From a virus, in IMG/VR virus record IMGVR_UViG_3300013113_000739, positions 1 through 28,068 of that record: 28,068 nucleotides of DNA. One strand, written 5' to 3'. The position numbers and the translations under genes are program-made. The stretch's first letter is position 1. The number at the start of each line of letters is the position of its first letter. Shown in pieces: positions 2,850 through 19,579 of this stretch. Below the pieces are notes generated by a model. It worked only from the letters and a program-made list of their open reading frames with translations, made no database searches and was not told where the DNA came from.

Positions 2850-3716
2850 TCAGCTAATATCCTGATCGTCTAGCATTTCTTGGTATGATTGTACCATAGA
2901 TGAATATTTTATGCAATAACAATATTTTTGTTCATAAGCTGTCTTAAAGACTCCGTATGAGACGTTAATATCCTCTTCCACTCGCGACTTTACAAAGTTG
3001 TTGATCTTTCTAAACAGTGTGCCGTCGTTCTTCAAATCTTCTTCGCTGATACCATAGTAGTATACCACATCCCTGACACTTGTCAAGGGGTAAAACCACT
3101 TTTCTTTATGTTCTCTCTCATCATCTGACTCTATGTCTACAACGCCGACCGTTGCGATCCTGCTGATCTGGGCCGGGCTGATAAAGTTTCCGATGACGGG
3201 TTCTGTGTGCTTAAATACGTTAATCATGTGAATAGTATTGACGATGGCGTGGTTAAGAGTATCGTAGTAGCCGATGATTGACATATCTCCGATACTCCTC
3301 TCTAGTGCGCTGTTACTTATCATTACCACTAACTCTATAATACCAGATCGAGCGTACTCTTGCAAGACATTACTTACGATTTTTTCTTGTTTCTTTTGAG
3401 TCTCGGACATTATGGACTTATCGCCCTCAACATAGATGACCGTGATATTATTCTTGTTTAGCTGCTCAAGCAGGCGCAATGTGCCCCCCGAAATCTGTCC
3501 TGCTCCGGCGATAATAACAAATACATCTTCGCCTGTAAACTTTAGTTTTCTCTTAAGGTTGGGGAAGTTCTCGTCGTAGTCTTCGTGATTCTTCTTCTTG
3601 CGAATAGTAATATCAGCATCCTCTTGGACGTCAATACCGAAAGTTTCATACTGCGAAAACTTTGAAAAAGATTTCGCGATGTTGCACCCTGCTTTGCCGA
3701 GACCTACTACTTTCAT
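2850..3716 (-). CDS. FtsZ/tubulin-like GTPase-fold protein
   Basis: A 288-aa protein with the order of elements of FtsZ/tubulin GTPases. Residues 1-14 (MKVVGLGKAGCNIA) match the first nucleotide loop (FtsZ: VIGVGGGGxNA). DVFVIIAGAGQISGGT (64-79) fits the strand and T4 loop (FtsZ: xFVTAGMGGGTGTG), though the signature is diverged. ITVIYVE and IIELVVMISNSAL follow in the positions of the next strands. The T7 catalytic loop NxDxxD is not evident (GNFISPAQIS at 176-185), so GTP hydrolysis may be lost or altered. Start: an ATG at 3716 overlaps the MazG stop (ATGA) and directly opens the glycine-loop strand; a GTG at 3731 would add five residues. It could be a PhuZ/TubZ-type filament or a host division inhibitor; assembly is unproven. 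Confidence 0.72.
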   Translation of the reverse strand: MKVVGLGKAGCNIAKSFSKFSQYETFGIDVQEDADITIRKKKNHEDYDENFPNLKRKLKFTGEDVFVIIAGAGQISGGTLRLLEQLNKNNITVIYVEGDKSIMSETQKKQEKIVSNVLQEYARSGIIELVVMISNSALERSIGDMSIIGYYDTLNHAIVNTIHMINVFKHTEPVIGNFISPAQISRIATVGVVDIESDDEREHKEKWFYPLTSVRDVVYYYGISEEDLKNDGTLFRKINNFVKSRVEEDINVSYGVFKTAYEQKYCYCIKYSSMVQSYQEMLDDQDIS

Positions 3717-4030
3717 CCTTCTTCGACCCACTCCAAAATGAGACCCTTGTCAAAGCCGCCGCGGGAGATACGTTTGGCTGTCGTCTCAGCCATAATTTCG
3801 CTGTCTCTGATTTCTAGCTGTCCGCAGATAAAATGAAAGATCTCCATAATGTCTCCAGCTTCTTCAGCGCAAGGGTCTTCAATGAATTCCTGCACTTCTT
3901 CTTGAAGTTTCTTCATTGCGTACTCCATCAGCTCTGTTTCTGATGCTTTGCGGGTGGCGAAGGACTTTCCGTCGTCTGCAATAATTCCAGGGATGCGATC
4001 CCTCACTAGTTTTTGATAAATCTTCTTCAC
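3713..4030 (-). CDS. MazG-like nucleoside triphosphate pyrophosphohydrolase
   Basis: A 105-aa protein of the all-alpha NTP pyrophosphohydrolase (MazG/PRA-PH) superfamily. Seen: the opening YQKLVRDRIPGII (5-17), typical of the phage and bacterial 'LVRDRIP' branch, then the metal-binding helices KLQEEVQEF (E-x-x-E) and AEEAGDIMEIF (EExxD). These coordinate magnesium and remove pyrophosphate from NTPs, adjusting nucleotide pools or (p)ppGpp-like signals; the phage substrate is unknown. The start is GTG at 4030, overlapping the polymerase stop as GTGA, with AAGGA about 9 nt upstream. The 3' end overlaps the FtsZ-like start (ATGA). Placement between polymerase and replication proteins supports a nucleotide-metabolism role. 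Confidence 0.88.
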   Translation of the reverse strand: MKKIYQKLVRDRIPGIIADDGKSFATRKASETELMEYAMKKLQEEVQEFIEDPCAEEAGDIMEIFHFICGQLEIRDSEIMAETTAKRISRGGFDKGLILEWVEEG

Positions 4031-5214
4031 AGTTTTAATTCCTTCATTTCTCCAAGGTTTTTGCCAGCTGAGACATTAACCTTGAATACATCATACCGTG
4101 TTTTTCGGAACGTGTCAAGCAAATTCAGCAATTCGGGGCGATCTTCGTCAGCCAGGTCGATGTAGACCGCATCGTGTATAAGAAATGAAATGTGACTCTT
4201 CCTCCCCTTCAGAAGCTCATAGACCTTATAAGCCTGTTCGTGTACCATATCGATTGTAGTGCTTTGAATGATGTAGTTGAGCGCATGGTGTTCATCTACA
4301 TCTTCTATTATTCTACCATAATCAGTCGTAATTTTTAAGCCGTCCCAGTACTTATTCCGCACCAAATCCTTGTTATAAAGTCGCTCTAACTGCTTGTTTT
4401 CCTTACCGGAATACAGCCACGCGAAGGTTTTCACCTTGGCTTCTTCTCGGGTGAGGGTGCTGCCAAAAATGTTCTTAACACTCCAATCATGAATGTCGTT
4501 CTTGGGCTGTTCGACGCCTGCGAGAGCCAACAGCGTCCGCAGTTCGGCCGCATTGAAGTCAAGCTCCACCAACCAGTCGTTCTTTGGTTTAATACACGCG
4601 CGGAACTCCTTATTCATCGTGAGAATCGGCAGACTGTTGGGGTTGGTTGACAGACGCCCCGTGATGGTGCCCCATGGGTTATAATCGCATACATGATTGA
4701 CGGTTTGCAGCGTGCGGCGGAAGTTCATTCCGCGGACAGAACTGAGAAGATGATTGATTGGTCCGAGATCGATTCTCAGAGGGCGCAGCCGGATGTCCAT
4801 GAGCATCTTATTAAGATTCAGCATGGCATCGTAGTTCGCAGGACGAGGGTAGGTGTCCAGCACGTGTTGGGTTATCTTATTTTTGGCGTTTAAGTACTCA
4901 AAAAGGAAATACTCGGGGATCACATCATAAAGACAGTTTTCTTCTAAAGAAAGTCGAGAAGTTCGGAAGGCTCTCAGACACGATTTAAGCGTCTTCTTTA
5001 TCTTTTCCCACTCCTCCTTCATATCTTCCGGGCAAACGTCTGTAAGAGCCGCTCCTTGGCTGTAGAGACGCCCTAGCTCGTACGTCTCCCCTCGCATATG
5101 CTCAGACAGCTCCCAACTCTCGCCTTGAGGGGGTATAATGTTTGTTGAATGTATTTGGTTGTCGGCAAAATATCCGACACAATCTTTCTTGTGATCCAGA
5201 ACTTGAAAAAGCAA
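4027..5214 (-). CDS. polA: Short family A (PolA-type) DNA polymerase
   Basis: The replicative polymerase candidate, 395 aa. Palm and fingers motifs are clear: TGRLST at 185-190, motif A LDFNAAELR with catalytic Asp219 and Glu224, motif B R256-x3-K260-x3-F264-x3-Y268-S-G (O-helix), and motif C FLIHDAVYID with His347-Asp348. The residue equivalent to E. coli 762 is Phe264. In motif C the usual HDE is HDA. No 3'-5' exonuclease motifs are seen in the first 130 residues, and the thumb region is short, so proofreading, if any, must be encoded elsewhere. The start is TTG at 5214, chosen because AGGAGG lies 5 nt upstream, overlapping the stop of the preceding gene. The stop overlaps the MazG-like GTG start. 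Confidence 0.9.
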   Translation of the reverse strand: MLFQVLDHKKDCVGYFADNQIHSTNIIPPQGESWELSEHMRGETYELGRLYSQGAALTDVCPEDMKEEWEKIKKTLKSCLRAFRTSRLSLEENCLYDVIPEYFLFEYLNAKNKITQHVLDTYPRPANYDAMLNLNKMLMDIRLRPLRIDLGPINHLLSSVRGMNFRRTLQTVNHVCDYNPWGTITGRLSTNPNSLPILTMNKEFRACIKPKNDWLVELDFNAAELRTLLALAGVEQPKNDIHDWSVKNIFGSTLTREEAKVKTFAWLYSGKENKQLERLYNKDLVRNKYWDGLKITTDYGRIIEDVDEHHALNYIIQSTTIDMVHEQAYKVYELLKGRKSHISFLIHDAVYIDLADEDRPELLNLLDTFRKTRYDVFKVNVSAGKNLGEMKELKL

Positions 5215-6515: not shown

Positions 6516-9500
6516 CTATTTGTCCTTGTCCCAGTCGGACGCGGGTCGTCCATGGAGCCAGGCGCGGACCTGTCTAGCAGCTTCGTAGGGCTGCAGTACG
6601 GCTGCGCCGGCGGTGTCGAGACCGAGCTTGGGCGCTCGGCGGAGGTATTCGAAAAGTGATATCTCCCCTCGTTGGTACTTTTCGGCGTGCTCGACCTGGC
6701 GCTCATAGGCGCCGGCGAGGGCGCCGTGTTCACCTAGCATAACATTTTCCCTGCGGATTTGTTCGGATTCGATGTGATCGACAGATGGTCCTGCCGACGG
6801 ACTCAGTTCGGGCTCGACGTCGTAAACCTCAACAGGATGACTAGAATTATTGAATTCAATCCCTTCATGGAGGGCTGTGAGACTCGTTGAGAAACCATCA
6901 GGCGTGACTTTTGACTGCACGCCTGTGACCAGATAATACCCATGGAGTCCCAAATAATCAAGCTCGGATTCGGACGCATCCAGCAGAGTAGGATTGATAT
7001 AAATATACATACCATTCTTATATAGATTATTGCCCACCATTTCAAGCTGCGAAGAATACAATTCTCGAAGCTGTTCGGCGCCGAGGGCGCCTTCGCGTTG
7101 GATCTTGGCTTCTCTTAAATATGCCTGGTCCTCGCGAGAAAACCGCAAACTCTTGAGAAGCCCACACGAAGCACCGATATAGTGATGATATATTCCTTTT
7201 TCAGTGTCGGACTGGTAGTTCCCCGTGAGATTGCGTGGGCGAGAATCAGACGACTGAACTATGAGTGCCTGTCGGGTAGATCCCACCGGAGTGGAAGGCA
7301 AAATATCAGTTCGTTTACTAAAACTACTGATGCTGATCGCAGTGTTTCGAGTCTGGCGATTGGGGATATAGGTGGTCGGGCGCGCGTCGAATCTTTGTTG
7401 GAATCGGATATCTGGACCAAAACAAGCCTTGTTAAGTGCCTTAGTGATAAGCTCAGCGCATAATTCTTTGATAAAATATAAGAAGTAATAACTTTCTTTG
7501 TCCTTTTTTACAACCCTATTCTTAAAGAAAAGCTGAAATGCCTCTGTTGATATGGGAATATCCCCTATATTTGTGAGGTTGACAATTTTGCTTGCTTCGC
7601 TGCTAAATGTTCTGGGGTCTGAGTTTATTAATTTTTGCATGAACTCGACCTCACGAATATCGCCGCACGTGAGGATATCATCTAACTCTTTGACCTGAAA
7701 GGCTATAAGGGGATTAACCATATCGACGTCCGCCAGGAACGTATCAAACATTATTTTTTGCCCTTTATTATTGGTCTTCATCTGTTCAAGGATGTTATCG
7801 ATAAGGTCTCCCAAAAAGAAGAAAGGTAGAGATTTAATGTCGCCGGATTTTTGCAACTCCCGATAGCGTTCGCCGGCGCGTTCGGAATAAGCTTTTGCCG
7901 CGTCAGTTTCGCCGGTGGTGTCCGCTGCAGCGGTTGAAACAGAGTCCAGGAGATCGGTATGAAGTGTGCCGGTGTTGGTGAAAACTAGTTTGCCGGTAGT
8001 AGGGTCGAGTCTTCTTTTGGCGCGGCGTGCTCGATCTTCAGGAGATAAGTCACGATAGGGGACCATCAACAACTCAGCACCGGAGATTTCAAGAGCATGA
8101 ATTTTGGAGTGAGTCGGATTGAATAATCCCTGCAATAATTTCTTATACTTGTACATCTTTCCGCGGGTGTTCAGAGCTTTTTTCTTCTCTAAAAGTTCTT
8201 TTCTCTTTTTCTTTTCGTGTTCAGTAATCTGGTCGTCGCGATCGCTGTATTCTTCTAATTCCTCATCGATCTTTTTCACGGCTGCGCGCATGGAAGCGGG
8301 ATCTTCCGCAAATATATCGGCGCGAGGGGATGTGAGAAGTCCGGAAAGACTAGCTTGATAATCGATTGACAGTTCCAAGGATCCGTTCTCCGAGAAGTTT
8401 AGATTGTGACGCACTTGCGTAAGAAATAAAGTAACACGCGTTGCGGTGATCGCTTCAGATAATAACTGTATGTCGGAGGGGTCTGCTTTGGGCATAAGGT
8501 CCAGAAGATTGGGTGGGGTTGCCCAGCCGGCGACAACTTTGATCTGATATCGCAGTCCTTCATTCTTTCGATGCAGATTCTTGCGCAGTGTATCGCATGG
8601 TCCAGCTGGTTCGTCGTTGTTGGATTTTCCAGATTCTTGCAACTGCTTGGCGGAGGGGGAGTTGATCAGAAGATCAAGAAAAGTTGGTTCTTTTTCACCA
8701 GCTGCGGATTGTCCCCGGAAAAAATCATTGATACTCTGAAAATACAGCACCAACTTAGCTGTTATATTGTTATCTACCTCTTCCGGCTGGACACCTTGGA
8801 GTCCCCAAGAAAACGACTTAATTCCTGCGCCGGCGATGCGTCCTCGCTCGCCGCGGAGAATATTACTTATGTCACTTCGCTCTATAAAATTTGGGATCAC
8901 CAGTTCTCTTTCTTTTGGCTTATTGGTCTCTGGATCAATAGACACAGAACCGTCGTCTTCGTACTCAATTCGATATATTTTTATATGAGGAACTAAAGAT
9001 CCATAAACTTCCGGGCACAAATTAAGGATTTGTTGGATTCTTTTAGACTTGGGACTATTGGGCATACCATGTTTTAGAATATTTGTAACCCTTGACGGCT
9101 CCGGTGTCTTCAATATTTTAACATGCTTATAGGTCGCTGCTAGAGGGCTTCCTGTCTCCTTTCTTTTGGCAACGATTTCCTCTATGTTCTCCATCAAATA
9201 GCACTGCATGTCGAAGGGTGTCAGGTTTCGGCGCGCGGCTGAGAGAGCATCTTGCAGAGCTTTCTGGGCCTCCGGGTCTTTGATTGCTTCATTAATTGTG
9301 GCAAACTCAGGCTTATCGGGGAGGGGGTTTACTTCTGGTTGGGTGCCAAAGAAAGCCAGGATGGAGTTTATCTCTTTTGTTACTCCCTTGCGCCTGTCTA
9401 ACTCAGTTGGTACCAGCCCTTCTATTTGTATTATTTGAAGTAGGAGGTTTCTGTACGCTCCAAGATTGAGTCCCTTAGCCCACGAGTTAACTATCCCCTT

Positions 9501-11183
9501 ATATGCATCCGTTTCAGTGTTAGCGTAGCTGATTGTGGGGGCCGGATATAAACGCGGAGAAGGGTTATTGCCCCATACGATAGGAGAGTCGCTAAAGTCT
9601 TGTAGGGGTAATTTGGGAGATCCGAAATCTTTTTGGGTCTGGGAGGCATTGGGTCCGAAGTCTTCGGTCGCTTCAATTTTGAAGAGGATCTTATCCATTT
9701 TAATACTGGACGCTGCCACCCAATCGCGCCCGATGTGGGTGCCGAGTTCGGGTCCGCCATGGCGGATGAGGTGAGTCTCAAACTTAGAGATTAAAATTTT
9801 AGCATCCGCTGCCAGTCGAAACGCCAGATCCTTATAAGGATTGCCTGTGATTGCGGGGGGTGGGGCGGATGTGGATGCTGCAGCAGACGTTGTAAGCAGT
9901 TCGGCGAGGGCAGTCCTCAGAGCCTTGGCATGCCCTCTCTCATTGTTTGGGGGGCGGTTCTGCTGTTTAGAGGATGTGTGCCCGGCAGCAATAAGCTCAT
10001 CGTGTAGGGAAATGAGGGGCGGTTTATTGGGGGCGTCCCAGTTTCCCTCATGATAAAGCATCTTCGTGTTGGGTAAGTGTGTCTTCCCAAGAAGCTCTGA
10101 CGCTAGCGGATCAATATAGTATACTTGTGAAAAGCTGAGAGAGCCGGCGAGGGGGTCGGTGAGCGCCTTTGCCAATCCTTGAGCGCCCTGGCTCCAGCCA
10201 CCTAGACGATACTCAGATGCGGTCCCATGTCCGGTGAGAGCGGTGTCTGCAGCGCTTTTCATCGCAGCGAGGTCGCCATTGGAAGATTTATTTATAACAA
10301 GAATTAAATTATTTGGTGTTGAGATGGAAACACCAAGGTCTCCGTTGAGACCATCCGCCGGGTCTGCGGTACCGTATCTGGGATCCTTGCCGCTCTCGAT
10401 GCTATTCTTGATGTATTGAAAGCCGGCGCCAGTGTTGCCGAAGTTATTCTTTCCAGGAAACATAAACAGAACCACTGGGTTTTGCGTCACGGCATAGCGG
10501 ATTGTTAGGGTTTGGTTTGAGTCAGTAACATCGCTTACGGGCGTGGTGGATGCTGGAGGTGTGGTGGTGGTCGATGTGGTGGAGGGGTATCTATAGGCTT
10601 TATTGGCTAGGTACTGTAGGATCGGGGTATCGCCGAAGAATTGGTATGGTGAGGCTCCTTTGACGGCGGCGCTGTCGGCGGCCAGACCCGGGGCTTGCAT
10701 GAAAGAGAATTCTAATTTGGTGTCAGCCTGCTTAGCCTTCGCCACGCCCGTATTATATAATAAGTCATCAGCTTTCTCTTTCTCTTCAGGGTCCCAGAAG
10801 CCGTTTTGGCGTGCATTGAGAGAGAATCCTTCCCCTAAATTCTCGGGATCAATGCCGGTTAGGAGTCCGATTGTGCGGAAATCTGTTCTGTTATTGAGAT
10901 AGTTTGTTGTAGGTCCTAGTGCGGCTTTTGCTTGTTCGAGATTGCGTATACCTTCTCCATCCAGAATTTTGGGCTTGTGCATTGTGGCTCTAAGGATGTC
11001 CTGCTGATGTTCGTTGTATAGAGGGGTCTCATTGCTCCCATCGCCAACAAACTTATTATAAGCTTCTTGAGCATAAATTGTTTTTTGATACATCCGGAGG
11101 AGTTCTTGAAAACTCATTCGGACAGCCGGGGTGTGATGCCCGACTGTATTCCTGTTGGGATTTCGGGGCGTATTGATAGGCAT
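6516..11183 (-). CDS. Baseplate/virion megaprotein with embedded hydrolase-like domain
   Basis: A 1555-aa tail protein. Residues 1-200 are a helical N-terminal region. Residues about 222-430 look like an alpha/beta hydrolase fold, with nucleophile elbow G329-W-S331-Q-G333, a strand ending in Asp358 (QVYYIDPLA) and His418 (NNERGH); this block is bracketed by Thr/Ser/Pro/Ala linkers at 201-218 and 432-445. A conserved-looking block FDMQCYLMENIEEIV lies near 660 and GAGIKSFSW near 785, both of which I recall from marine phage structural proteins. A charged coiled coil lies at about 965-1005. Residues 1392-1444 (MYIYINP...LGLHGYYLVTGV) resemble phage hub-type proteins. The ATG at 11183 has GGAGG 12 nt upstream. 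It probably forms part of the baseplate hub or wedge; enzymatic activity is inferred. Confidence 0.8.
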   Translation of the reverse strand: MPINTPRNPNRNTVGHHTPAVRMSFQELLRMYQKTIYAQEAYNKFVGDGSNETPLYNEHQQDILRATMHKPKILDGEGIRNLEQAKAALGPTTNYLNNRTDFRTIGLLTGIDPENLGEGFSLNARQNGFWDPEEKEKADDLLYNTGVAKAKQADTKLEFSFMQAPGLAADSAAVKGASPYQFFGDTPILQYLANKAYRYPSTTSTTTTPPASTTPVSDVTDSNQTLTIRYAVTQNPVVLFMFPGKNNFGNTGAGFQYIKNSIESGKDPRYGTADPADGLNGDLGVSISTPNNLILVINKSSNGDLAAMKSAADTALTGHGTASEYRLGGWSQGAQGLAKALTDPLAGSLSFSQVYYIDPLASELLGKTHLPNTKMLYHEGNWDAPNKPPLISLHDELIAAGHTSSKQQNRPPNNERGHAKALRTALAELLTTSAAASTSAPPPAITGNPYKDLAFRLAADAKILISKFETHLIRHGGPELGTHIGRDWVAASSIKMDKILFKIEATEDFGPNASQTQKDFGSPKLPLQDFSDSPIVWGNNPSPRLYPAPTISYANTETDAYKGIVNSWAKGLNLGAYRNLLLQIIQIEGLVPTELDRRKGVTKEINSILAFFGTQPEVNPLPDKPEFATINEAIKDPEAQKALQDALSAARRNLTPFDMQCYLMENIEEIVAKRKETGSPLAATYKHVKILKTPEPSRVTNILKHGMPNSPKSKRIQQILNLCPEVYGSLVPHIKIYRIEYEDDGSVSIDPETNKPKERELVIPNFIERSDISNILRGERGRIAGAGIKSFSWGLQGVQPEEVDNNITAKLVLYFQSINDFFRGQSAAGEKEPTFLDLLINSPSAKQLQESGKSNNDEPAGPCDTLRKNLHRKNEGLRYQIKVVAGWATPPNLLDLMPKADPSDIQLLSEAITATRVTLFLTQVRHNLNFSENGSLELSIDYQASLSGLLTSPRADIFAEDPASMRAAVKKIDEELEEYSDRDDQITEHEKKKRKELLEKKKALNTRGKMYKYKKLLQGLFNPTHSKIHALEISGAELLMVPYRDLSPEDRARRAKRRLDPTTGKLVFTNTGTLHTDLLDSVSTAAADTTGETDAAKAYSERAGERYRELQKSGDIKSLPFFFLGDLIDNILEQMKTNNKGQKIMFDTFLADVDMVNPLIAFQVKELDDILTCGDIREVEFMQKLINSDPRTFSSEASKIVNLTNIGDIPISTEAFQLFFKNRVVKKDKESYYFLYFIKELCAELITKALNKACFGPDIRFQQRFDARPTTYIPNRQTRNTAISISSFSKRTDILPSTPVGSTRQALIVQSSDSRPRNLTGNYQSDTEKGIYHHYIGASCGLLKSLRFSREDQAYLREAKIQREGALGAEQLRELYSSQLEMVGNNLYKNGMYIYINPTLLDASESELDYLGLHGYYLVTGVQSKVTPDGFSTSLTALHEGIEFNNSSHPVEVYDVEPELSPSAGPSVDHIESEQIRRENVMLGEHGALAGAYERQVEHAEKYQRGEISLFEYLRRAPKLGLDTAGAAVLQPYEAARQVRAWLHGRPASDWDKDK

Positions 11184-11189
11184 CTCGAT

Positions 11190-11531
11190 TTAGCCTCCCT
11201 TATACGCGCGTAAAACGGCCTCTAACGGTGTCGGAATAAAGATGACTTCTCCAACTGTTACATCAGCCTCAGTTGGCTTCTGATTAAACAGAGCTATCAC
11301 CCACCAATACTGTGTAGAGTTATAATACTTATGGGCTAGTTTATAATAGCGGTCCCCACTGGTCCAAACGTGCCTAGATTTCGTAATCTGTTCCATCTCG
11401 CTTTGAGATGGATAAGACATCTGCGCGGTATTATAGTGAAGAATAGATTTTACATCTCTATCGTCCAAGACTTTTTCATACCTCTCGTTGTCGTTGGTAA
11501 AAAGTTTGCGGTTATCGTATCGTTTGCCCAT
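11190..11531 (-). CDS. gp53: gp53/LysM-like baseplate wedge protein
   Basis: A 113-aa tail protein with a LysM-like C-terminal half: SGDRYYKLAHKYYNSTQYWWVIA at about 58-80, then TVGEVIFIPTPLEAVL. This is the pattern of phage LysM/gpX and T4 gp53 baseplate proteins (YGDxYxxLAxxYYGDxxxWWxIAxxN...GxxIxIP). In T4, gp53 binds the wedges together; LysM-type proteins can also hold the hub. The ATG at 11531 is preceded by AAGGA, with the recurrent CTATTTA word lying between the ribosome site and the start. The 3' end contains the GGAGG that serves the next gene. It sits between the tail/baseplate protein at 11556-12464 and the megaprotein. Confidence 0.83.
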   Translation of the reverse strand: MGKRYDNRKLFTNDNERYEKVLDDRDVKSILHYNTAQMSYPSQSEMEQITKSRHVWTSGDRYYKLAHKYYNSTQYWWVIALFNQKPTEADVTVGEVIFIPTPLEAVLRAYKGG

Positions 11532-16438: not shown

Positions 16439-19400
16439 TTAATCCTCGAACGATGCTCCGGTTCGTGAGATATTGAAATCGATTGCGATGAATTCAATAG
16501 CTCTAGTTGGCTTCAAGAAGATTTGAGCATATAGAATGTTTCTATCGATCAAATCGGGGGTTGTTGTACTTGAATCGAGTACAACCTTGAAATCGGACAA
16601 ACCGAAGTTTGTTTTTACATCTGCCAAGAAGGGATTAACCTGCGCTAAGAAACGCAACCATGTCTGCTTGACGTTCGGATCAAAGAGCAAGCCGGCTGCA
16701 ATCTGCGAAATGCGTTTCTTGACGAAAATCATCAGGCGCCGGACGTTAATACGGTCCAGAGCGGAAGGCGTAACCTGAAGGGTCTTCTGACCGAAGATTA
16801 CAATGCCCTCTGCGGGGAACTTGGCAATCGGGTTGATGTTTGCGCTATAGAGATCGTCGCGATCCTTGCGGCGTAGCTGGTGAGCCACATCGACCACTGG
16901 GATGCCAGCGGAGCCCTCTGTCAGTCCGCCGCGGTTGAAGCCGGCTGGAGCAAACCAAACCTGCGTCTTGCGCTGGGAGCTTGAGAGCGTGCCCAGTGCG
17001 GGGATGGACGGGGGCAACCAGAGGAAAGCGCCATTGATGGTGTCTCTGGCGCGAACCCATGGGTAGTAGGTGCAACCGTAAGAAGAGTTAAGTCCTCTAG
17101 AGCGCATGCCATTAATCAGGCTTGTGATTGTGCTAGGTAGGTTCTCGCGACTTACTGCATCTGATTCCTCTCTGGGTGTGAAGGCACCAGGAAGATCGAT
17201 GATCGCCAGTGCGTCGGCGCGATCTTCGCATGTGTTAATCAAGTGTGTGGTAAGTCCCTCGTGGGTTAGTCCCGGGATGGTGGCTAAGCTCATCTCTACG
17301 GTTTCCGGATCGGAGATCGAATCGATCGACCGGCGGATGGTGTTGAGGGTATAGCTAGTTGTCTCGGAGCTACCGATGTTGATGTTGGCGAAGGCATCCA
17401 TATCTGTAATGTTAACACCGTCGAAGCCACCGTACATTGGGATTGTGAAGCGATCGTAGCCTTGATCGAGGACGCCGCTTACAGCACCGTTCACAAACGT
17501 AAGCGAGTCGCTAGTGTGCGATCCACTTGACCACACGCCGGAGCCAGAAATGTCATCGAGTGTGAATGTAACCGAACGCTCTGTTTTGGCTCCAGCTGTC
17601 TCACTGAACATGGCACCTACATTGCCGCCGCGAGGACGCATCAAATCAATTGTGGATCGAGCGAACACGGTACTGCCGGCAGAGCGGGCAGTCTGCAGAC
17701 CGAAGTATGCATCGGTTGGGTTTGAAAGACTACCCGCGCTCGCACTCAAACGAAGCTCAGGAGCGGGGTAAAGCACCGAGGCTGTAAGAGCACCCGAGCC
17801 GGACACAATAAAGGGACCAGCTGCAACGTGGAGAGCAGGAACGGTTGCCGAAGCGGAGACCCAGTTGCCGTTACCGGCTGCGTCGAGTAGCTCGTCGTCA
17901 TACTTGACCATACCACGGAAACCAAACGGCAAGAGAGAGGAGTTAGTACTACCGGCATCCACACCGCTGTTCATCGCGATACGAATGTATGCAGAGTTAT
18001 TGGGCCAGTCGCCGCGGGTGCGGTACCGACGGGATGTAGGCTCCCACTCACGGTACTGCGTACCAATCTTCCGTGCTACATAGTTCAGTGAGTCGGGGTT
18101 AAGATCGCAGTTGTTAAACTGTTCAATAACGCGCACAACATTATCACTATCACTCAAGTGACGAACAACCACAGAGAAAGTACCATAATCAGTGCTGTCG
18201 TTAGTGGAGCGCCTAATGTCCTGAATCGAGATCTTAATGTTACGGTTAGACCAGTCTCCAGGCTCATCCAGCGCTACGAAGTTGAACAAGTTCACCGGAG
18301 CATCTGTTGGCGACATGCGTGAACTAATGACTTGCGGTGTTTGAGCAGACTGAAGCTGTTGCTTGAAATCTCCGCCCGAGGCGGCAGTTCCGGAAGCCTT
18401 CTCGATCTTCACAAGTGCGGCGAAGGTGTTGTTGGCACTATCGGCACTAATGTTGCTCTCAAGGTGACGATCAAACGTTTCTCCCAGGAAGTACTTCTCT
18501 CTATCCGCGGCGGCAGTGGTCTGTTCATTACCCAGTTGAGGGTTTGTGTTGAACACCTTTCGGATATATCGGGAGTCGGCGCGGTTAAAGTTAAAGGTAA
18601 TATCGGTGTTCGAGGTTCCCTTATAGTTAGCGATGTGCATCTTGAACTCGCGACCGGGACCAACTGCCTTCACTACAGTGTCTAGGGACTGTGTGGGGTC
18701 ACCCGTACCCCAGTCTGTAGCGGTGGAGTAAAGAATGTTACCACTGAGGGCGAAAGTCGTCGACTCATTAGTCGAATAGAAGATGGCTGCGAGAGCGCCG
18801 GTAAGAGCCGACTCCGGATCTTCGCCTCCACCCAGAGTACCACTGAGGGTGTCGCCGCTGCCAAACCCTGACAGAGAGAGGTATGAGTCATCGGAGGATG
18901 TGATTTGCAGTAGGTTTCCAGCGGTACCGCACGTTACAGCTGTGTAAGTAATGAGATTACCCACAGCACTAGCTGTAATATCCGTGAAGTTGTTGTTGGA
19001 AGCGGTGACTAAGTTGGCTGCCATCTCTTCGTTGTCTGCTCCGACTTCGAAGTCCGTTCCAGCTACAGCCGTCCATTGGGCGGTTAAAGTAGTACCCCCA
19101 TGCGTGAGAGTGACGCCCTTGGCAGAAGCCGATGTGGCAGTCACGCTACCTGTGGCACACACGGCGTCTGTGTGGGCGCCGCGGTCGAACACTACCAAGC
19201 CATACGCATCACCGTCTGCATTCCAGCCAGCCGCGCCGGCTGCTGTGGCATCGTCGTTCTCTGCACCGAGAAGACGAATGTAGGTCAAAGGAGCACTGTT
19301 CTTCAGGTATGCCTGTGCAGCATACATGCCATACGTGGTTGCTGTTTTGTCAGTTCCTTCCCGCCATACATCGTCGCCGGTGCCACCAGGAGCGGGGGTT

Positions 19401-19579
19401 CCAAAGATGTTTACAAACTCTTCAAAAGAATTGACGGTTACAGGTCTTAGTGCTGGTCCCGAAGCGGCGCGCCCAATAACTACTGGACCGATGCCAGCTG
19501 GGGAAGCAGGAACTTGGGAGTTGTCGATTTCGTTGACAAACACGCCGGGGGATACAAATCGGTAATTTTTAACTGACAT
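16439..19579 (-). CDS. gp18: Tail sheath protein (gp18-like), unusually long
   Basis: A 1046-aa contractile sheath protein; T4 gp18 is 659 aa. Seen: the opening SPGVFVNEIDNS (10-21), the sheath hallmark, followed by GPVVIGRAASGP and a 'SFEEFVNIFG' segment (51-60). The C-terminal third has the conserved sheath fold, including DRINVRRLMIFVKKRISQ and LFDPNVKQTWLRF near the end, then KPTRAIEFIAIDF. The extra length sits partly in a Thr/Ala/Gly-rich beta-like insertion at about 141-253 (bases 18821-19159) and in further Ser/Gly-rich segments in the middle. Sheath domains of this kind face the tail exterior, so insertions can add surface decorations. AGGAGA lies about 10 nt before the ATG. An inverted repeat and CTATTTA lie upstream. 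Confidence 0.93.
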   Translation of the reverse strand: MSVKNYRFVSPGVFVNEIDNSQVPASPAGIGPVVIGRAASGPALRPVTVNSFEEFVNIFGTPAPGGTGDDVWREGTDKTATTYGMYAAQAYLKNSAPLTYIRLLGAENDDATAAGAAGWNADGDAYGLVVFDRGAHTDAVCATGSVTATSASAKGVTLTHGGTTLTAQWTAVAGTDFEVGADNEEMAANLVTASNNNFTDITASAVGNLITYTAVTCGTAGNLLQITSSDDSYLSLSGFGSGDTLSGTLGGGEDPESALTGALAAIFYSTNESTTFALSGNILYSTATDWGTGDPTQSLDTVVKAVGPGREFKMHIANYKGTSNTDITFNFNRADSRYIRKVFNTNPQLGNEQTTAAADREKYFLGETFDRHLESNISADSANNTFAALVKIEKASGTAASGGDFKQQLQSAQTPQVISSRMSPTDAPVNLFNFVALDEPGDWSNRNIKISIQDIRRSTNDSTDYGTFSVVVRHLSDSDNVVRVIEQFNNCDLNPDSLNYVARKIGTQYREWEPTSRRYRTRGDWPNNSAYIRIAMNSGVDAGSTNSSLLPFGFRGMVKYDDELLDAAGNGNWVSASATVPALHVAAGPFIVSGSGALTASVLYPAPELRLSASAGSLSNPTDAYFGLQTARSAGSTVFARSTIDLMRPRGGNVGAMFSETAGAKTERSVTFTLDDISGSGVWSSGSHTSDSLTFVNGAVSGVLDQGYDRFTIPMYGGFDGVNITDMDAFANINIGSSETTSYTLNTIRRSIDSISDPETVEMSLATIPGLTHEGLTTHLINTCEDRADALAIIDLPGAFTPREESDAVSRENLPSTITSLINGMRSRGLNSSYGCTYYPWVRARDTINGAFLWLPPSIPALGTLSSSQRKTQVWFAPAGFNRGGLTEGSAGIPVVDVAHQLRRKDRDDLYSANINPIAKFPAEGIVIFGQKTLQVTPSALDRINVRRLMIFVKKRISQIAAGLLFDPNVKQTWLRFLAQVNPFLADVKTNFGLSDFKVVLDSSTTTPDLIDRNILYAQIFLKPTRAIEFIAIDFNISRTGASFED

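Follow-up and report, generated by a model that had tools for sequence, protein, structure and literature searches.

The window, by which we mean the whole 28,068-nucleotide stretch of viral DNA that was analysed (IMG/VR record IMGVR_UViG_3300013113_000739), carries a long open reading frame with an inserted block in its N-terminal extension; the features are listed in Table 1. The gene lies amid baseplate and tail genes, with gp53-like, T4_baseplate, tube, sheath and head neighbours, and the cluster around it is a contractile-tail baseplate cluster. The tail sheath protein itself (16439-19579, minus strand, 1046 aa) is unusually long; the sheath profile covers mainly its C-terminal third, and a large N-terminal or inserted region remains. 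On the same strand, a 395-aa family A DNA polymerase-like open reading frame with a TTG start (4027-5214) was matched in its C-terminal polymerase region only, and a 293-aa protein (2850-3731), which starts with VVGLGKAGCNIAKSF and later contains an AGAGQISGG stretch, gave faint matches under the cut-off to TrkA_N and Tubulin/FtsZ; it may be a phage protein that binds nucleotides and is possibly tubulin-like.

Table 1. Positions in the window of the carrier gene, its neighbour, the inserted module and the candidate catalytic residues.
Feature	Position	Strand	Basis
Carrier: baseplate hub protein of 1555 aa, long extension at the N-terminus	6516..11183	-	ORF and hub fold of insert-free L002 model
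Hub core (gp27/VgrG/gp44-like), about residues 730-1441	6861..8996	-	approximate; coordinates transferred by alignment
Upstream neighbour, baseplate wedge (gp53-like) protein	11190..11531	-	PHROG 7145, E 2e-12
Module inserted at residues 225-432, probably an alpha/beta serine hydrolase	9888..10511	-	alignment with insert-free and SGNH-bearing relatives; strand/elbow order
N-side linker, residues 200-224, Ser/Thr/Pro rich, PSTTSTTTTPPASTTPVSDVTDSNQ	10512..10586	-	sequence; absent in L002/L003
C-side linker, residues 433-447, Ser/Ala/Pro rich, SAAASTSAPPPAITG	9843..9887	-	sequence; absent in L002/L003
Ser331, candidate nucleophile in GWSQG	10191..10193	-	motif; conserved in L001
Asp358, acid proposed earlier, judged less likely	10110..10112	-	hand alignment to LysB
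Asp383 in HEGNWD (TKMLYHEGNWD), likelier catalytic acid	10035..10037	-	hand alignment to LysB Asp166
His418, candidate catalytic base, in RGHAKAL	9930..9932	-	hand alignment to LysB; conserved in L001

Relatives over the whole length of the carrier were found on about 74 contigs in IMG/VR scans, whereas 50,697 phage records yielded none. An insert-free relative, L002, was modelled with AlphaFold from an alignment of 51 sequences (pLDDT 74). Residues 475-1200 of this model matched many solved hubs with Z about 9-13, among them those of contractile-injection systems and pyocin R2 as well as Mu gp44, T4 gp27 and VgrG, in accord with the pair of tube-like domains that characterises the hub fold. 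Foldseek placed the same hub group on top with modest E-values (best 5e-3), and in a viral library its matches were predicted proteins that go under the names tail lysozyme, M15B peptidase and glucosaminidase-like. By this modelled fold the carrier is a phage baseplate hub of the gp27/VgrG/Mu gp44 type. Another hub (L078:4325-9910, 1861 aa) has an N-terminal extension of about 890 residues in which Pfam recognises nothing.

In the alignment of relatives the chain runs ILQYLANKAY - block - NPYKDLALKL. In L002 and L003, the nearest insert-free relatives, the block of about 208 aa is absent and a loop of about seven residues (PPGADNP) stands in its place; this point is a short loop joining two predicted helices in the extension that precedes the hub core. 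L001, whose hub is 86% identical to that of the window overall, has the same block (78% identical), and the sister pair L004 and L011 carries a different block of about 210 aa at the same loop, surrounded by Thr/Ser/Pro linkers. In a tree of the hub core the SGNH, empty and window-type sequences formed one clade (support 1.0). An assembly artefact is unlikely because each loop state was seen in two separate contigs. The alignment shows the block to be an insertion. The original prediction, made from the letters of the window, had inferred an inserted module from the Ser/Thr/Pro/Ala linkers that flank it in a baseplate protein; the linkers and the insertion were confirmed, and the carrier can be specified as a hub from the L002 model and the neighbouring genes.

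The block of L004 and L011 contains motif blocks of an SGNH hydrolase (GDSQ for GDS, GAND for GxND and DGVH for DxxH) and matched PF13472 with an E-value of about 1e-6, PF00657 in L011 being just at the cut-off. A profile built from this block together with SGNH domains of L034, L036, L037 and L038 matched TesA and GDSL esterases of solved structure. By motifs and profiles the block is a recognisable GDSL/SGNH hydrolase. L034, L036, L037 and L038 belong to another, distant clade within this hub family, in which the SGNH domain lies within the N-terminal ~650 residues in a different architecture and is 26-30% identical to that of L004/L011. Since this second clade is distant and its N-terminal architecture is another one, we infer that SGNH domains either entered these hubs at least twice or changed places inside the family.

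The insert of the window matched nothing in Pfam, PHROGs, NCBIfam or the sequences of the PDB, and L001 was the only homologue found in viral contigs and genome contigs. Candidate homologues in Vibrio phages D69/D148/D181 (tblastn E 0.6) were rejected, as they are without GxSxG and a DPAD-type repeat drives the alignment; plasmid matches (E 0.06 and worse), which fell in SDR oxidoreductases and in other places, were taken to be chance. An AlphaFold model of the insert reached a pLDDT of 32 and was unusable because the alignment held only two sequences, and its Foldseek matches were noise. A LysB profile gave no significant match to the insert with HMMER or hhalign, the only local match of hhalign being on the nucleophile elbow, with 2.5% probability. 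GWSQG is the only GxSxG motif within the N-terminal 656 residues of the protein (motif scan). Since GxSxG turned up in 15% of shuffles of the insert sequence, the motif by itself is weak evidence; it is raised above chance by the sister proteins, in which this loop holds a recognisable esterase instead.

The elements of the insert follow one another as VVLFMFPG - NLILVIN - EYRLGGWSQG and helix - SQVYYIDP - TKMLYHEGNWD - RGH and helix, where the helix after GWSQG appears in the low-confidence model (pLDDT 32) only and no clear strand beta8 precedes His418. This order likely fits a small or minimal alpha/beta hydrolase of cutinase/LysB-like type. When the insert was aligned by hand with ten mycobacteriophage LysB proteins (LysB of D29 matches Pfam Cutinase and was solved as 3HC7), the elbow corresponded to AGYSQG, YYIDP to FWGNP, GNWD to AHDGD with the invariant Asp166, and GH to PH with the invariant His240. 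Ser331 in GWSQG, Asp358 at the end of YYID and His418 in RGHAKAL lie where they had been placed before. The choice of Asp358 as the acid of the triad is probably wrong; it follows the strand past the elbow helix, a position that the N of WGNP takes in LysB. Asp383 is probably the likelier catalytic acid because it sits at the invariant Asp166 of LysB in the hand alignment. The proposed serine hydrolase is likely from the element order and the esterase of the sister proteins, but the insert matched no hydrolase family significantly, and the alpha/beta fold is only probable.

Ser331, Asp358, Asp383 and His418 are all kept in L001, the x of GxSxG being changed; with inserts that are about 78% identical, the conservation of Ser331, Asp358 and His418 says almost nothing. 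Between the window and L001 the insert has a dN/dS of about 0.31, so it is under purifying selection. Along the whole hub gene (window 6516-11183 vs L001:8001-12677) dS forms a mosaic from 0 to 1.05 that peaks in the insert's first half; this suggests repeated recombination, and because of it no clean breakpoint could be placed at the insert.

We favour, with rather more confidence than doubt, the reading that residues 225-432 form a small alpha/beta serine hydrolase that is carried on the hub and attacks ester bonds in the envelope of the host. The enzyme would probably be lid-less, with cutinase/LysB-like order, Ser331 as nucleophile and probably Asp383 as acid and His418 as base. Flexible linkers would hold it as a loop between two helices of the N-terminal extension of the hub, and it would ride in the virion at the tail tip. 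Its most likely targets would be ester bonds of lipids, lipoprotein acyl chains or O-acyl groups on a surface glycan or on peptidoglycan, and cleavage would take place during adsorption or penetration. The role as depolymerase or the capsule target that the original prediction put forward among its options found no support here.

The main competing explanation, which we consider distinctly less probable, is that the insert has no catalytic role: it would be a binding or decoration domain, or else a hydrolase that has decayed, its GxSxG would be due to chance, and it would be exposed at the tail tip to bind the host surface. The complete lack of family matches, the frequency of the motif in shuffles and the loop past the first strand, which differs strongly between the window and L001, would all suit such a domain. 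Against it speak the sister proteins, which have a recognisable SGNH esterase in this very place, the retention in L001 of the Ser, both Asp and the His although the x of GxSxG differs, and an element order that suits an alpha/beta hydrolase. Another alpha/beta enzyme with a GxSxG elbow, e.g. a serine protease, amidase or acyltransferase that acts on peptidoglycan or protein and not on esters, appears improbable: hubs of similar predicted fold are annotated with lysozyme, peptidase M15B and glucosaminidase domains, but the loop in the sister proteins holds SGNH domains of esterase type and not peptidoglycan hydrolases. A degenerate SGNH hydrolase that diverged from the block of L004/L011 would account for the same insertion point, the similar length and the alternation of strands and helices in both blocks; it was rejected and is very improbable, as GDS and DxxH were absent from the insert in the motif scan and GxND by eye, and hhalign against the SGNH set gave 1.5% with an implausible alignment.

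Among known systems, T4 gp5 is a lysozyme built into the hub; hubs of the T4 gp27/gp5 type thus also have an envelope-cutting enzyme at the centre of the tail, while enzyme class and place of insertion differ from the window. Mycobacteriophage LysB, a phage alpha/beta serine esterase with a GYSQG elbow, resembles the insert, which is probably of this kind, and by the hand alignment has the same element order, but it is a free lysis enzyme outside the hub and has no significant sequence match to the insert. A hub with an SGNH esterase has precedent in the Tal proteins of 80alpha and phi11: both the staphylococcal phage 80alpha Tal (gp59; PMC7048315) and phi11 gp44 (PMC5380687) combine a gp27-like hub at the tail tip with a predicted C-terminal GDSL/SGNH serine esterase. 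The hub of the window is likewise gp27-like, with a module predicted here to be of serine-esterase type; however, the 80alpha and phi11 proteins are from siphoviruses and their domain is SGNH and C-terminal, whereas the module of the window is probably alpha/beta and lies inside the N-terminal extension in a contractile-tail cluster. The SGNH deacetylase domains of phage fibres and tailspikes are serine esterases in tail proteins with host surface decorations as target (PMC9569702, PMC11058221, PMC5380687, PMC10684548); the probable esterase of the window would resemble them in this, but they have the SGNH fold and sit on fibre or spike and not on a hub. The window differs from the known hubs in the insertion site, the contractile-tail setting and the replacement between apparently unrelated folds. 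A hub that probably bears an alpha/beta hydrolase, in a slot left empty or SGNH-filled by close relatives, looks new.

The three states of the loop suggest an exchangeable tool for crossing the outer layers of the host. That the loop is an enzyme-exchange slot, which in close relatives is empty or holds an SGNH or an alpha/beta enzyme, two unrelated serine-hydrolase folds, and which may follow shifts in the ester chemistry of host envelopes, is a proposal on which we are evenly divided. If true, esterases with different folds would replace one another on the hub of contractile tails, and ester-linked groups of the host envelope would be a barrier at the penetration step. The same hub would then exist in nature in an empty, an SGNH and an alpha/beta form, a ready comparison for the role of these enzymes in infection.
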